In this document: positions 49,297-55,486 of the stretch, in pieces | How positions within the stretch are numbered: position 1 is the first letter of the stretch | How the letters are laid out: each line of letters begins with the position of its first letter | NCBI GenBank assembly: GCA_022821965.1 | Contig: JAJECN010000022.1 | Coordinates: 186,001 to 250,000 of the forward strand | DNA length: 64,000 nt | Direction of reading: 5' to 3' | From: Candidatus Poribacteria bacterium | GTDB lineage: Bacteria > Poribacteria > WGA-4E > WGA-3G | The notes under the pieces: model-generated | Databases searched by the model: none | The model's input: the letters and a program-made list of their open reading frames with translations, nothing else | What the model was told of the DNA's origin: nothing | Program-made: the position numbers and the translations under genes

Positions 49297-49539
49297 TTAC
49301 GGACACGATTCATCCAAATCGAGTGCAACGAAACGGAATCCAAGGGGTTTTATCCGCTCCACTAAGGTTTCCCGCAATTGAAGGGCACGTTCAAATTGGG
49401 CATCCGAGACCTGTATGCGTAAAACTGGCGCGTGGTCAAAGAGTGAAACGTCTTCCAACTCGAATTCGTGTAGGATCTGCTCAACTTCCACCAATGCTGC
49501 AGGACTTTCAACTTGCCCCGTATTGGGATCTTTTTCCAT
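49297..49539 (-). CDS. stand-alone LarE C-terminal-like domain protein
   Basis: 80 residues starting at ATG 49539, one base after the upstream SDR stop codon, so coupled to it (GGAGG lies 17 bases upstream). It reads like the last domain of LarE sulfur transferases: EVEQILHEFELEDVSLFDHAP, LRIQVSDAQFERALQL and ERIKPLGFRFVALDLD match the LGF-YVTLDL type ending. The PP-loop ATPase part is missing. This is motif-based inference. It may be a remnant or a small regulatory or adaptor version. A longer frame to 49623 overlaps the SDR gene. Confidence 0.5.
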   Translation of the reverse strand: MEKDPNTGQVESPAALVEVEQILHEFELEDVSLFDHAPVLRIQVSDAQFERALQLRETLVERIKPLGFRFVALDLDESCP

Positions 49540-49540
49540 T

Positions 49541-50347
49541 TTAGGAACGTCGCCTCCAGTCGCTACCTGCCATGAACCCACCATCAACAAAGACCATTTG
49601 TCCGGTAACAAAGTCGGAAGCATTAGAGGCGAAAAAAATTGTCAAGCCTGCCAAGTCTTCAGGTTCACCCCATCGGTAGGCAGGGGTGCGATTGAGAATC
49701 CATTCGTTTCGGTTGTCCTCGCGGGCAGGGGCAGTCATCTCGGTTCGGATGAAGCCGGGGGCGATGCCGTTGACCTGAATGTTGTGTTCCGCCCATTCTA
49801 CAGCGAGCAGTTTTGTCAATTGGAGGAGTCCACCCTTCGCTGCTGTATAGGCGACACTCGTCGGTAGTCCGATCGCTGAGGTAAGCGACAACGTGTTGAT
49901 AACCTTACCGGATTTTTGCTGCTGCATTACATTCCCGCAGGCTTTCGCTAGAAAGAACGCACCTTTCAGATTAACATCCGTAACGAAGTCCCAGTCCGCT
50001 TCAGTAAATTCGAGGGCAGGATTGCGTATATTGACCCCAGCGTTGTTGACGAGTACATCAAGTCTACCGAAAGTTTCGACGGTCTGGGCAACGAGTGCGT
50101 CAATTTCGTCAAGGTTGCTGACGTCTGCCTGAATTGGGAGGACGTTTTTGCCAGTCTCACCGGCAATCTGTTCAGCGATGGGGGTTAGTGTCTCTATTTT
50201 CCTACCCACGACGACGAGTTCGGAACCTGCACCTGCAAGCCCTTCCGCCATCGCAAGCCCAATGCCACGACTCGCCCCGGTGACGAGGCTCACCTTGCCA
50301 TCCAACTGAAATTGCTGGACAGTGGCTGTAGCGGATTTTTGATTCAT
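49541..50347 (-). CDS. short-chain dehydrogenase/reductase
   Basis: 268 residues. SLVTGASRGIGLAMAEGL (TGxxxGIG, residues about 18-35), NNAGVNIRNPALE, the catalytic YTAAKGGLLQLTK and VFVDGGFMAG are canonical. It is closest in style to gluconate 5-dehydrogenase or 3-oxoacyl reductase-type SDRs. GGAGTGAAAT before ATG. It is in a minus-strand run with the VWA protein upstream and the LarE-like fragment downstream. Confidence 0.92.
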   Translation of the reverse strand: MNQKSATATVQQFQLDGKVSLVTGASRGIGLAMAEGLAGAGSELVVVGRKIETLTPIAEQIAGETGKNVLPIQADVSNLDEIDALVAQTVETFGRLDVLVNNAGVNIRNPALEFTEADWDFVTDVNLKGAFFLAKACGNVMQQQKSGKVINTLSLTSAIGLPTSVAYTAAKGGLLQLTKLLAVEWAEHNIQVNGIAPGFIRTEMTAPAREDNRNEWILNRTPAYRWGEPEDLAGLTIFFASNASDFVTGQMVFVDGGFMAGSDWRRRS

Positions 50348-50372: not shown

Positions 50373-51572
50373 TTAATCGGTGGGTCCGTCCTCTTCGGCA
50401 TATTGATATAATAAATCTGTATCAATCACCTTTATTTTCCCATTGTGCTCTTCCGCCAAAGAAACGAGCAACTTTGCAGCAGGAGAACGTTTCGGGTCAA
50501 CCTCAAGCGCAACAACATAGATAATAGCGTTGTTGACGTTCTTTTCTCGCACCGCATCAAGAATTACGTCCTTATTCACTTCAATAGGGTAGTTAGGACT
50601 TGCTGTAGGAAGTCCATCAGTTATCAAAACAATAATAGATGGATCCAATGCTAGCGAGACATCAAGCGCAGAGAGGATATTCGTGTTGTTATTTCCGTGA
50701 ATGCTTTCCGGTGTGAATCTGTCAAGATATTTCAAGGTACGTTCTATATTTGCGGCATTCGCTGGTAGCATTTTCTTACTCATTGCTCTTGCCTGCGCAG
50801 AAAATGTTACTACGTTTAGCCTATCGTGGCTACCAAGCATCAAAGTAGAATCTTTGAGAGAGTTGACTGCAAGAAACAGTTTTCTCAGTCCAGCAGCCTG
50901 CATACTTGCCGAAATATCCAGACAATAAACGACATCTTTGGGGCCCCCGAATTCATCAAGGAAATCAATGATGCCGAGGCGATCCGAGATCCCGCTACTT
51001 CCACCGCCACCGAGGAGTCCATCTCCACCGCCCTGTCCATCCCCACGGAACCTGCCCATTCCATCTCCGCGCGCCCGGACTCTACCGGTAACGAGGCCGC
51101 GTCCATCGGTGCGTCCCGGTTGCGCGATTAATCTACTGAGGTTCGAGGCTTCGGCTTCGCGTAATTTTGCATCCGTCATAACATCCGGAACGATCTCGCT
51201 CAAGGGTGCTTTGTTAACTTCCACATCTTCAAGGACGACCCTCGGACTGAATTTAACAACTTCATCGACTTTGTTCCGAGCGGTTTCAATCTTCTTATCC
51301 ATCGCATCTCTGGCGAGCTGCTGATTGGGATCATACATTTTTTTGGTGAGGGGTGGTTTCGGCTTCGGTTTCCGCTTTCTGGGAGCCTCTGCGTCGTTAA
51401 TCAAGTCAACAGCAAGTGCGTCTGCCTGTTCTTGACTGAGCTGATTTATCGGGAGAAAAAGGTAAGTAATAACAAAAATCATGTGTAAGATAAGGGATAA
51501 TAAGATAACTGAACGCGTGCGGTTTCTACGTCGTTTTGCATCAACACTCCAATTCAGCAGATGATTTAACAT
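50373..51572 (-). CDS. von Willebrand factor A domain protein with N-terminal membrane anchor
   Basis: 399 residues. A positively charged start leads into one membrane helix (VILLSLILHMIFVITYLFL). A Pro/Lys-rich segment of TonB type (RKRKPKPKPPLTKK) and a Gly-rich linker (GDGQGGGDGLLGGGG) follow. The VWA domain carries the MIDAS motif VVYCLDISASM and IIVLITDGLP. It should sit in the periplasm and bind a partner via metal. The TonB-like stalk suggests a role in cell-envelope linkage. GGAGGGCTTTATC before ATG. Confidence 0.83.
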   Translation of the reverse strand: MLNHLLNWSVDAKRRRNRTRSVILLSLILHMIFVITYLFLPINQLSQEQADALAVDLINDAEAPRKRKPKPKPPLTKKMYDPNQQLARDAMDKKIETARNKVDEVVKFSPRVVLEDVEVNKAPLSEIVPDVMTDAKLREAEASNLSRLIAQPGRTDGRGLVTGRVRARGDGMGRFRGDGQGGGDGLLGGGGSSGISDRLGIIDFLDEFGGPKDVVYCLDISASMQAAGLRKLFLAVNSLKDSTLMLGSHDRLNVVTFSAQARAMSKKMLPANAANIERTLKYLDRFTPESIHGNNNTNILSALDVSLALDPSIIVLITDGLPTASPNYPIEVNKDVILDAVREKNVNNAIIYVVALEVDPKRSPAAKLLVSLAEEHNGKIKVIDTDLLYQYAEEDGPTD

Positions 51573-51661: not shown

Positions 51662-52180
51662 CTACGTTTCTGATGCAGCTTGTTGATTTTCAAACGCCTG
51701 AATCCACGTTTTGCCTTCAGGTGTCAGTTCATAATAGGTATGGTTACGATGTTTGATCCATTTGCCTTTGACGATATTCTTACGATAGTGGATAATCCGC
51801 CCTTCAACCCGCTTCAAACCACCGAGGTTCCTCAATTTACGATGTCGTTGGTGCATCTCTTCCAACGGAATTCTTAAAGTTTCAGCAACAACAATAGAGT
51901 AGTCCATTCCCAACTCTTGATGGTGTTTCAGTATAAAGTAATCGGTTTCATCAAGCTCAGCAAATTCGGGTGGAAGTGCGTCTGAATCCGCTGGTGTCTC
52001 GGTTTTTTGAATCTCATCCCACGTTACATTCAGTAATCGTTCTGTTCGGAAACCCTGTACTGCGTTACATGTAGCATCATGGACAGTAATGGTGCCATCC
52101 TCTTTGAAATAACCTGTGATTGCATCGTCCTCTTGTGGCGCGCAACACTTTGCAATTTTATACGTTAACGCATCTACCAT
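51662..52180 (-). CDS. RelA/SpoT RIS-type zinc-finger plus winged-helix protein
   Basis: 172 residues. The N-terminal AKCCAPQEDDAITGYFKEDG followed by TITVHDATCNAV closely resembles the RIS (zinc-finger) domain of RelA/SpoT proteins (CC, then His, then Cys). The rest looks like a winged helix: DYFILKHHQELGMDYSIVVAE, a basic HRKLRNLGGLKRVEGR region and a beta wing (YYELTPEGKTW). There is no synthetase or hydrolase domain. So a stringent-response sensing module seems joined to a DNA-binding domain. It is co-directional with purD. A better match to another wHTH family cannot be excluded. Confidence 0.7.
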   Translation of the reverse strand: MVDALTYKIAKCCAPQEDDAITGYFKEDGTITVHDATCNAVQGFRTERLLNVTWDEIQKTETPADSDALPPEFAELDETDYFILKHHQELGMDYSIVVAETLRIPLEEMHQRHRKLRNLGGLKRVEGRIIHYRKNIVKGKWIKHRNHTYYELTPEGKTWIQAFENQQAASET

Positions 52181-52276: not shown

Positions 52277-53554
52277 TCAATCCCGTTCCAATGCGCGGTA
52301 TCCGATGTCATTCCGAAAATGTGCATCGGCAAATTGAATGGCAGAAACACCTTGATACGCCCGTTGAATAGCATCGTGCAATCCGCCTGCGACAGCAGTC
52401 ACACCTAATACTCTACCACCATCTGTGACGATGTTTTCACTATCTTGTCCGGTTCCGGCATGAAAAACGTTCACCCCCTCAATCGCATCGGCATCTTCAA
52501 GCCCTGTAATAACGACTCCTGTTTGGTAGGGATCAGGATACCCACCGGAAGCCATAACGACACACGCTGCAGCTTCGTCATGCCATTGCACATCAGCGGC
52601 GTGCTGTTCAAGTGTTTCATCAATACATGCGATTAGTAAAGGGACTAAGTCACTCTTGAGGCGAGGAAAGAGAACTTGTGCCTCCGGGTCTCCAAAGCGA
52701 CAGTTGAATTCCACTACTTTCGGTCCGGCATCAGTAATCATCAAGCCAACATACAACACCCCTTTGAAGGGTCTTCCAATATCTGCCATGCCTTTGACAG
52801 TCGGATAAACGATGCGCTGCATCACATCGTCGTGCAGTTTAGGTGTGATAACAGGTGCTGGTGAGTATGCGCCCATGCCACCGGTGTTCTTACCGGTATC
52901 ACCATCGTGGGACATCTTGTGGTCTTGTGAACTGACAAACGGGAGACAGTAGGTTCCATCGGTAAGCACTGTGAAGGAGGCTTCCTCACCGATGAGTTCT
53001 TCCTCAATCACGACACTATCCCCTGCGTCCCCAAATGCTTTGTCCACCAGAATCATTTTGACGGCTTGCAACGCCTCTTTGAAGGTACGTCCGGGGATGA
53101 CCCCTTTTCCTGCAGCGAGTCCATCTGCTTTGACGAAAACCGGTGCGTTGTAATCTTCAATATAGGCCATCGCTTTTTCTATATCCGTAAATGTGCGATG
53201 TGCTGCTGTAGGTATTCCATTTTTCACCATCAGCTGCTTGGCGAAATCCTTGCTTGCTTCGAGGCGTGCTGCACGCTTATCCGGTCCAAACGCTTTAAGC
53301 CCACGTTCGCGGAACGTATCAACGATTCCTTCCGCCAATGGAGCCTCCGGTCCAACAACAGTCAGTGCAATATCTTCGGATACCGCCCATTCTGCCAATT
53401 CGATAAACCGAGCTGGCATTGGAATAGATTCCGCGATTTGAGCAATGCCCGGATTACCGGGGGCGCAATATATTTTTTCGACGAGTGGGCTTTGTGCAAG
53501 TTTCCAGACGAGGGCGTGTTCACGCCCGCCCTGCCCGATAACCAGAATTTTCAT
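52277..53554 (-). CDS. purD: phosphoribosylamine-glycine ligase
   Basis: 425 residues starting at ATG 53554; a TTG three bases earlier is not used. The purine enzyme GAR synthetase, with N-terminal MKILVIGQGGREHALVWKLAQS, the ATP-grasp segments VFVKADGLAAGKGVIPG, VVIEEELIGEEASFTVLTDG and VEFNCRFGDPEAQVLFPRL. Full length. It starts only about 30 bases after the isrB gene, with no good ribosome site (AAGATCTTG), so the insertion may have replaced its leader. No other pur genes are near. Confidence 0.93.
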   Translation of the reverse strand: MKILVIGQGGREHALVWKLAQSPLVEKIYCAPGNPGIAQIAESIPMPARFIELAEWAVSEDIALTVVGPEAPLAEGIVDTFRERGLKAFGPDKRAARLEASKDFAKQLMVKNGIPTAAHRTFTDIEKAMAYIEDYNAPVFVKADGLAAGKGVIPGRTFKEALQAVKMILVDKAFGDAGDSVVIEEELIGEEASFTVLTDGTYCLPFVSSQDHKMSHDGDTGKNTGGMGAYSPAPVITPKLHDDVMQRIVYPTVKGMADIGRPFKGVLYVGLMITDAGPKVVEFNCRFGDPEAQVLFPRLKSDLVPLLIACIDETLEQHAADVQWHDEAAACVVMASGGYPDPYQTGVVITGLEDADAIEGVNVFHAGTGQDSENIVTDGGRVLGVTAVAGGLHDAIQRAYQGVSAIQFADAHFRNDIGYRALERD

Positions 53555-53583
53555 CAAGATCTTAGGGATGGAAACCTTGCGCT

Positions 53584-54606
53584 TCAGCGCGAGGAGGAAA
53601 TCCCGCTCCTATAGTTGAAATTCAGACGTGTTAGCACCTTAAAATCTGAGAGTTTCGCATTTTGGCAAAGCCGCTTACCTTCCAACGAATACAACGAAAT
53701 ACCTGCCTTGCCAAATCCACTGATACGCGTCAAACCATATTTGACATGTCTAACGAGTGTGTTTTTCACCAAATTCTCGCAAGTCGTCCCACCATAGCGG
53801 GGTCTTTTTCCACCTTTCTGTGAGTTCTGACGATGCAGTTCACGTCTGACAATCGGAATCGGCGAGAGGCAGAGCAAATCTGTGTTCGCTACTGTCGGTT
53901 CACCGCCGACAGTGTGATATGCCAGACACCAACTGTCTACACAGTGGGCATCGAAGGTTTCAGAAAGTTTCTTTGAAGACTTTTTCAAACCGAGTCTCTC
54001 ACGAATCTCTTTCGTCTGCCATCCTTGGAGGGTCAATACCTCCCATCGCTTCTGAAGCTGCGTGTAGAACCATTGCTTACCAACTTCCAAAGGACTAAAG
54101 GATTGATTCCACTTTTTCGCACGTTCTATTGTTCGTGCCTTAATATCCTCAACACAAATATGTGTGATCGGAAACATTTTTGACAACCAGTCAAGAATCC
54201 GAAGTTTCCAATCCCATCTCGCACGTGTCCCGGCAGGAACTCTGTCTCTGTTCGCGAGGCGGTTGGTGCGGTTTTTGCGATTCGGGCATTTCCGAGAACG
54301 TCTGCTCCTCCGCAACTCACGCCGGTTGGCTACCTTCTTACCAACTTTACTGTGAGCATCTGCTTGAACATTGAGATAGGTGTGTGCTTCACTTTTGACA
54401 GTAAAGCCTTCTTTCTTACTGCCGGGGTCTACTCCGACGACGACCTCTTGTTTGTAGTCGTCAGATGGCTGAACATTCAGACGCACACAAAACACACCAT
54501 TTTTCCAAAAAGGTGTCGCTTTGCCTGATTTTATCCACTTCCCGGCACGCTGCGGCGTTGTCGGCATCAGTGGATTTTGGTTTTTATCAACAACTATCAC
54601 AAACAT
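53584..54606 (-). CDS. isrB: IsrB-type RNA-guided nuclease (HNH-less IscB relative)
   Basis: 340 residues starting at ATG 54606; a longer frame to 54795 only translates the candidate omega-RNA. The PLMP domain is at residues 1-43 (NPLMPTTPQRAGKW). RuvC-I is VVVGVDPGSKKEG (Asp60). The arginine-rich bridge helix is RRELRRSRRSRKCPNRKNR, RuvC-II THICVEDIKA, RuvC-III FDAHCVDSWCLAYH. No HNH cassette with its CxxC lies between RuvC-II and III, which is what separates IsrB from IscB. Known IsrB proteins nick the non-target strand with an omega-RNA. No transposase gene is seen. Confidence 0.8.
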   Translation of the reverse strand: MFVIVVDKNQNPLMPTTPQRAGKWIKSGKATPFWKNGVFCVRLNVQPSDDYKQEVVVGVDPGSKKEGFTVKSEAHTYLNVQADAHSKVGKKVANRRELRRSRRSRKCPNRKNRTNRLANRDRVPAGTRARWDWKLRILDWLSKMFPITHICVEDIKARTIERAKKWNQSFSPLEVGKQWFYTQLQKRWEVLTLQGWQTKEIRERLGLKKSSKKLSETFDAHCVDSWCLAYHTVGGEPTVANTDLLCLSPIPIVRRELHRQNSQKGGKRPRYGGTTCENLVKNTLVRHVKYGLTRISGFGKAGISLYSLEGKRLCQNAKLSDFKVLTRLNFNYRSGISSSR

Positions 54607-54832
54607 AGTTTGTAAGTTCCCTTTCGGGTTGTATATTTCCCCATCCAGATCACAGTATCCGAGAGGAATCAGACTTGGGGAGCATCCGAAACATCGTGCT
54701 AACTGCCACGCCAAGATACCGCGATATTTTACTGTAGAAAACTGTTTCGTCCTATGCAGGGAACGTTTGGCTACGCTTTGCACAGGTTTCCTCACCCTTT
54801 AGGGTGAGGTAGTTGACTTACATATCCTTTTT
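54607..54832 (-). ncRNA. candidate omega-RNA of isrB
   Basis: IscB and IsrB omega-RNAs lie just upstream of the protein gene with the guide at their 5' end. Here a perfect hairpin CCTCACCC-TTTA-GGGTGAGG (54790-54809) and several other short stems (for instance CCCGAAAGGG before the ATG) lie between a promoter at 54867-54839 and the start codon. With initiation near 54832, the guide would be about 54831-54811. The extent and guide boundaries are inference. Confidence 0.55.
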
Positions 54833-54838
54833 GATTGT

Positions 54839-54867
54839 ATTGTATCAGAATATGTTCGGAAAATCAA
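54839..54867 (-). promoter_or_regulatory. putative promoter of the omega-RNA and isrB
   Basis: On the minus strand, TTGATT (54867-54862), 17 bases, TACAAT (54844-54839). It would start transcription near 54832, at the 5' edge of the conserved RNA hairpins. Confidence 0.5.
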
Positions 54868-54932: not shown

Positions 54933-55078
54933 ATGCCTAACACACATCCACGAGAAATAGAAATCATCCACGAGAAATAGAAATCTTCCACACTCAAGAT
55001 AGACAAGAACCTTTCACTGAATGGTTGAGATCACTTCTCGATCAAAAGACGCGAGGTAGAATACGAAAACGACTTGAA
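54933..55078 (+). pseudogene. broken HigB/RelE-type toxin
   Basis: ATG 54933 reads MPNTHPREIEI, then a stop. In another frame the toxin start continues as FHTQDRQEPFTEWL and SLLDQKTRGRIRKRLE, the typical N-terminus of the phage Gp49-like RelE/HigB toxin family. A 20-bp perfect tandem duplication at 54946-54985 (ATCCACGAGAAATAGAAATC twice) causes the shift; removing one copy restores MPNTHPREIEIFHTQ. The remaining two thirds of the toxin (the ELR...GPGYRVYF end) are absent, and the frame runs straight into the antitoxin. Confidence 0.75.
54946..54985 (+). repeat. 20-bp perfect tandem duplication in the toxin remnant
   Basis: Units 54946-54965 and 54966-54985 are identical. Twenty is not a multiple of three, so the second copy breaks the toxin frame. 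Confidence 0.9.
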
Positions 55079-55486
55079 ATGAGAAAATATCGAACATGGC
55101 ACGAGGTCTTAATGGAAGATCTGGCAGACCCGGCAGAAGCAATTAGTTATCTTGACGTGTCCCTGGAGGAATATCAGATGGATGGAGATACACCTTTCTT
55201 TCTGAAAGGGATTCGGAATGTTGTTGAAGCACAGGGCGGAGTTGCCGCGATCGCCAAACGAGCTGCGATGTCGCCAGAAACGCTGTCGAAAATCCTCTCA
55301 AGTGAAAAAGTTCCGTATCTTGATACTTTTGCAACTATTCTCAATGCGCTGGGGTGCCGGCTTTCAATCGAACCGCTAAAAGATGACGAGGATGCTACCT
55401 CTGATACCGAACCTGTTGCCGAGGTTGAAAGCACGAAATTTGGAGATTCACAAACACAATTGACTAAATCAGACGCTCCTCAATAG
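55079..55486 (+). CDS. HigA-like antitoxin (addiction-module antidote)
   Basis: 135 residues from ATG 55079; the frame is also open upstream to 55025 through the toxin remnant, so a fused 153-residue product is possible. It has EDLADPAEAISYLDVSLEEY, then a helix-turn-helix GVAAIAKRAAMSPETLSKIL and FATILNALGCRLSI, the layout of the COG3636-type antidotes that pair with Gp49-like toxins. The C-terminal tail of about 35 residues is acidic and disordered. Since the toxin is broken, the antitoxin may persist as a repressor or protect against related toxins. Confidence 0.78.
   Translation: MRKYRTWHEVLMEDLADPAEAISYLDVSLEEYQMDGDTPFFLKGIRNVVEAQGGVAAIAKRAAMSPETLSKILSSEKVPYLDTFATILNALGCRLSIEPLKDDEDATSDTEPVAEVESTKFGDSQTQLTKSDAPQ

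Follow-up and report, generated by a model that had tools for sequence, protein, structure and literature searches.

We identified, in a genome of Candidatus Poribacteria, a protein in which the RIS domain of RelA/SpoT (RSH) proteins, also referred to as the zinc-finger domain (ZFD) or CC domain, is followed by a winged helix, while the enzymatic part of RSH proteins is absent. The gene is located on the minus strand of the window, i.e., the entire stretch of 64,000 nucleotides that was analyzed, at positions 51662–52180 (ATG at 52180, stop codon included and ending at 51662), and encodes 172 amino acids. We propose that this fusion is a one-component, DNA-binding local regulator with a RIS module derived from RelA/SpoT, an interpretation that we consider somewhat probable. 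The C-terminal winged helix would bind DNA. The N-terminal RIS domain, which judging from its homology probably derives from a RelA/SpoT protein, appears to keep the zinc-finger fold together with four residues likely to bind zinc, lacks the basic TRGRG stretch near the histidine, with whose help RelA holds on to ribosomal RNA, and would now most likely act as a zinc-stabilized sensing or pairing module.

RIS is known as the ribosome anchor of RelA and Rel, according to the available parts of PMC4974054 and PMC5829649. A lone RIS domain on a winged helix, with its zinc ligands kept and TRGRG absent, offers a natural test of RIS in the absence of the enzyme. The fusion also supplies a domain context for DUF2250, the family matched by the winged helix, which is a mere table entry in the available part of PMC9674854. 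A literature search, which mostly did not extend to subscription journals, returned no protein that combines RIS with a winged helix. In its accessible part, PMC3153485 uses the name CC domain and gives rare cases of RSH domain loss, among which the fusion does not appear.

Domain composition and predicted structure

The original prediction had assigned the N-terminal half of the protein to the RIS domain from the peptides AKCCAPQEDDAITGYF and TITVHDATC, both of which are present in the 172-amino-acid reading frame, and had suggested an HMM search with RIS. RelA/SpoT models of NCBIfam were indeed matched. TIGR00691 aligned with residues 4–59 (52004–52171, minus strand) at model positions 552–608 (E = 5.6e-8); when residues 1–62 were searched alone, the E-value was 8.6e-9 and all three models reported up to E = 10 were RelA/SpoT, while Pfam gave no family for this segment up to E = 10. 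Searching the sequences of the PDB returned RelA (8fr8, E = 3e-4), Rel (6htq, 8.6e-4) and E. coli RelA (5iqr, 3.8e-3). With a profile of 32 rows, five RelA/Rel sequences were found at E-values of 2e-7 to 8e-7, and 7qpr at 0.13. Profile-profile alignment (hhalign) of 12 fusion ZFDs with nine RSH ZFDs of the phylum reached a probability of 98.7 and an E-value of 2.6e-16, at 33% identity over 52 columns. The RIS assignment thus stands on family, PDB and profile-profile matches that agree with each other. Another zinc ribbon as the better match for the N-terminal half was also considered, and Pfam, NCBIfam, the PDB sequences and Foldseek offered none.

Behind a linker that is acidic and variable (residues 60–76, 51953–52003), residues 77–161 (51698–51952, minus strand) match DUF2250 (PF10007) with 53 bits, about twice the cut-off of 24.4. 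Neither HD, SYNTH, TGS, helical nor ACT/RRM domains were detected in the 172 amino acids by Pfam and NCBIfam at E = 1, in agreement with the earlier claim that a synthetase or hydrolase part is missing. The protein is accordingly no RSH enzyme: hydrolase and synthetase are lacking, and of TIGR00691 only positions 552–608 are covered. It shares with the RSH proteins the fold of this domain and the CC...H...C pattern, and differs from the long RSH proteins in lacking HD, SYNTH, TGS, helical and ACT domains as well as TRGRG, and in its separate side of the ZFD tree.

An AlphaFold2 model of the whole protein (32 rows) had a mean pLDDT of 67, with a winged helix in its C-terminal part and low confidence in the RIS half, which was therefore modeled alone. 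The model of residues 1–67 (35 rows, including three RSH fragments from IMG/VR loci) reached a mean pLDDT of 81 and is predicted to form the small beta sheet and short helix of solved RSH ZFDs. Foldseek placed only RelA, Rel or SpoT structures in rows 1–9 (probability 1.00, E = 5e-3 to 6e-2, 28–34% identity), with nothing at E = 0.001 or better, and row 10 had a probability of only 0.08; RSH proteins were thereby the only confident structural neighbors. In VIA-align, six RSH entries had Z-scores of 5.6–7.2 over 52–59 residues and the other two entries at most 2.1, keeping in mind that a Z-score under 8 may reflect a common arrangement.

The earlier expectation of a winged-helix-like domain behind RIS is borne out by the DUF2250 match and by the modeled, MarR-like fold. 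Over residues 68–172 we obtained 50 rows of fold matches (Z 11.0–12.7), which by their titles are mostly of the MarR type, such as MepR, MexR and MarR. The same list also holds Rio2 kinase, RosR, AspA and CadC, and the winged-helix fold by itself is no proof of MarR membership. Unlike MarR-type proteins, the fusion carries a zinc-finger domain in front of the winged helix and has no match to the Pfam MarR model at E = 1.

Conservation and distribution of the fusion

We aligned 58 distinct proteins in 59 rows (the window protein occurring twice). They share 63 invariant residues, 44 of which are located from residue 77 onward. Cys12 and Cys13 (52142–52147), His34 (52079–52081) and Cys38 (52067–52069; the last two spanning 52067–52081, all on the minus strand) are among them, as are residues K143–Y150. 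The CCHC set was found in all 61 distinct RIS windows of fusions collected by BLAST without a motif filter, after dropping the eight of 130 hits in which the RIS part was not spanned. Based on this conservation, Cys12, Cys13, His34 and Cys38 are likely zinc ligands. The motif KHRNHTYY (residues 143–150, 51731–51754, minus strand), located at the predicted wing, is unchanged in all 13 rows of an alignment, including two bacterial relatives that consist of DUF2250 only (L118 and L119), and HTYY is common to the fusion and to the archaeal and bacterial DUF2250 members read. At pH 7, the calculated charge over the 59 rows averages −3.7 for residues 1–62 (−6.4 to 0.7) and +3.7 from residue 76 on (−0.7 to 7.5).

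When 84 Poribacteria genomes were searched with the protein, 66 had a match, with 65 matches spanning both domains and the remaining one, in G012, ending at a contig edge; PF10007 was detected in 65 of 84. Among high-quality Poribacteria genomes, 47 of 55 had a match and 8 did not. The 18 genomes without a match comprise two of the window's family (G063 and G032), five of its order (G013, G014, G024, G025 and G026) and eleven deeper ones. Hence, the gene is not universal in Poribacteria. The wider sample consisted of 386 genomes (84 Poribacteria and 302 others, with archaeal genomes outside the sample), and the three 386-genome samples that were used overlap, so that their counts are not additive. 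Only one of the 302 other genomes, G219 from a second phylum, carries a full-length copy (175 amino acids), and the other three genomes searched from that phylum have no copy. Five genomes (G316, G093, G388, G389 and G396) match the DUF2250 half, in frames of 102–115 amino acids that are too short for RIS; of these, G316 and G093 were read. A weak and partial match was also seen in G144. Unlike the fusion, four further DUF2250 proteins that we read (L109 and L110, which are haloarchaeal, as well as L118 and L119) carry no RIS domain. RIS–DUF2250 fusions may occur in archaea as well.

A single RSH domain being left, and 18 of 84 genomes being without a match, could suggest a decaying RSH gene fragment fused by chance to a winged helix and devoid of function. 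Such decay is contradicted by purifying selection: comparison with the L033 copy gave a dN of 0.04 and a dS of 0.33 (dN/dS = 0.12), this being the one usable pair of seven (dS was over 1.3 for L034, L035, L041 and L058, L064, which contains an indel, was compared without alignment, and L067 gave no dS). The 63 residues shared by all 58 distinct proteins, as well as the retention of the fusion in different families and a second phylum, argue in the same direction, and we regard a functionless fragment as extremely unlikely. In a tree of 31 ZFD rows (14 fusions, the 14 Poribacterial RSH rows left of 30 after thinning, and three others; 58 columns, with little else resolved), the 14 fusion rows formed one group (100/98) apart from the RSH rows.

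A viral or plasmid origin was considered and rejected: tblastn returned five plasmid and nine phage records, none of which covers 80% of the query, and wherever a record has an annotation at the matched place, it is a RelA/SpoT gene, the remaining records being unannotated there. Scans of IMG/VR with the fusion as query gave no relative. With RSH ZFDs as queries, three RSH loci were found, whose frames of 703–730 amino acids match RelA/SpoT.

The TRGRG stretch and the resident RSH proteins

An RSH match is present in 81 of the 84 Poribacteria genomes (80 over the cut-off), and the three genomes without one are also without the fusion. We took RSH ZFDs from 31 of these 81 genomes, which resulted in 30 distinct sequences, and found TRGRG ahead of the histidine region in 30 out of 30. 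TRGRG occurs in none of the 61 distinct fusion windows, where KEDGT (36 windows), KEDST (10) and others, thirteen patterns in all, take its place; in the window protein, KEDGT occupies residues 26–30 (52091–52105, minus strand). Gly29 of the window protein aligns with R629 of E. coli RelA in the PDB sequence alignment. According to the available part of PMC7058999, R629 is located near the A-site finger, the replacements R629E and C612A C613A were used to disturb ribosome binding, and Rel with its CC pair replaced is defective in 70S binding. In RelA, the RIS domain is flanked by the A-site finger and S19 (PMC4974054, in the part available), and its contact with the ribosome is tied to recruitment (PMC5829649, likewise).

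That the fusions mostly carry KEDGT in place of TRGRG argues against a RelA-like docking on the ribosome, as far as sequence comparison can indicate. TRGRG is a local yardstick, taken from the RSH proteins of the phylum and not universal among RSH proteins. Rel of M. smegmatis has a glycine at the place of R629 and an arginine two positions earlier, and the three RSH ZFDs from IMG/VR are all without TRGRG (TKTRG, SPGKG and KSGQG). Because this position varies among RSH proteins too, the absence of TRGRG is no proof of independence from the ribosome. Within these limits, we infer that the RIS half may have lost ribosome docking.

These data also bear on the idea of a ribosome-associated factor, whose RIS domain would dock on the ribosome while the winged helix contacts rRNA, so that the protein senses or tunes translation. 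Rio2 kinase works on ribosomes, and three of its entries appear in the list of fold matches of the winged helix (Z 11.9–12.1). In one genome, a DUF2250-only relative is located beside genes that are rplU/rpmA/obg-like. The variation of RSH ZFDs at the TRGRG place and the retained CC pair, needed for 70S binding of Rel (PMC7058999, as far as available), as well as the two binding partners of RIS in RelA, the A-site finger and S19 (PMC4974054, same limitation), would also fit such a factor. On the other hand, TRGRG is missing in 61 of 61 distinct RIS windows, the RIS half is mostly acidic, and the protein has none of the TGS, helical and ACT parts that in RelA contribute to the contacts as well. 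Taken together, we consider a ribosome-associated factor unlikely.

The DUF2250-only gene just mentioned (L118:4002–4280, 92 amino acids) is flanked by a gene for an HD-domain protein and by those genes, which we presume to be rplU, rpmA and obg.

All 66 fusion-bearing genomes have an RSH match, which would suit a modulator that alters the activity of the resident RSH enzyme by binding it through the RIS copy. The ZFD residues C612, D637 and C638 were proposed to take part in RelA dimerization, as given in the available parts of PMC3153485 and PMC6719525. According to the accessible part of the latter, however, full complementation is achieved by RelA carrying C612G, D637R or C638F, and the authors favor intramolecular control. 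Moreover, the place of D637 is taken by T, S, E, A or M in the fusions, the RSH gene of the window's genome is located on another contig, and the winged helix would be left unexplained by such a role, which we find quite improbable. Roles at the ribosome or with the resident RSH enzyme are less likely than that of a regulator.

In one other genome, a partial RSH match was observed (G036:C19:6678–8000, positions 240–686), in a frame reported as 24449 amino acids, perhaps a run of masked bases.

The original prediction had further suggested that the protein links stringent-type sensing to transcription. A role in transcription remains plausible in view of the basic, MarR-like winged helix and the compact gene rows, while the link to stringent-type sensing is at most tentative. 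A transcription factor that reads a stringent-type signal directly, in which RIS would bind an amino acid or parts of the ribosome or of tRNA and pass this state to DNA without (p)ppGpp being made, is a very doubtful variant in our opinion.

Gene neighborhood and the putative purD promoter

We return to the reading of the fusion as a local, DNA-binding regulator. Directly upstream and on the same strand lies purD (52277–53557, minus strand), which is a neighbor in all 46 named loci, all of them from Poribacteria MAGs. A gene for a protein with a VWA domain (50373–51572, minus strand) is located downstream, in 45 of 46 named loci and in the three of three order-level loci read; the one named locus without it (L063) ends 1.2 kb after the gene. 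The gap between purD and the fusion gene measures 96 bases in the window and is shorter than 50 bases in 20 of the 43 loci measured (out of 47 including the window, with gaps over 400 bases or not measurable excluded). In all three order-level loci, the fusion gene and the VWA gene are separated by a gene for a MATE transporter (L168:4041–5411, L169:3360–4727 and L170:5592–6959). There is no MATE gene at this place in the 46 named loci or in the window, and MATE relatives elsewhere in the window's genome are only 26–32% identical. MepR and MepA form a MarR-MATE pair, which the three order-level relatives resemble in having a MATE transporter as the next gene. Among these three, purD adjoins the fusion gene in L168 only and is absent within about 5 kb in the other two. 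The G012 contig (4.9 kb) has no match to any neighbor from the window, and in G219 the reading frame overlaps the end of an upstream gene for a penicillin-binding protein. The gene row hints at local regulation and does not single out one target. Probable targets would be the fusion gene and the VWA gene, together with the MATE gene in the three order-level relatives and purD in close relatives.

A promoter-like site (TTGATT-17-TACAAT with TG) was found at 54839–54867 on the minus strand, and by motif count 20 of 42 relatives have a similar site immediately in front of purD. As the scan of 5 kb yielded 8 sites, close to the 6.7 expected by chance, this assignment rests on recurrence in the relatives. 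When up to three mismatches were allowed, the genome contained a single occurrence of the pattern, which does not indicate a regulon. In the aligned gaps around the gene and in the purD upstream region, only ribosome-binding and promoter-like blocks were evident, and no shared palindrome that could serve as an operator was seen by eye.

A gene of the RRXRR family (at about 53555–54818, reading frame 53584–54795, minus strand), which we take to be IscB/IsrB-like, is located between the purD-type promoter and the start of purD. Since a like promoter is positioned directly before purD in the 20 of 42 relatives, the purD row in the window may be displaced from its own promoter.

Several further genes around the row were recorded. 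At the N-terminus, the VWA protein has a hydrophobic segment, and its VWA domain is preceded by a stretch rich in proline and lysine; by eye, this gives it a TonB-like look. A reading frame of 108 amino acids (49297–49623, minus strand) that follows an SDR gene has no match in Pfam at E = 0.1; in 44 of the 46 named loci it is retained close to the row. The window further contains, upstream of the purD row, a gene resembling the HI1420-type addiction-module antidote (55025–55486, plus strand), and in several relatives antidote-like copies are likewise located upstream of purD, on the strand opposite to it.
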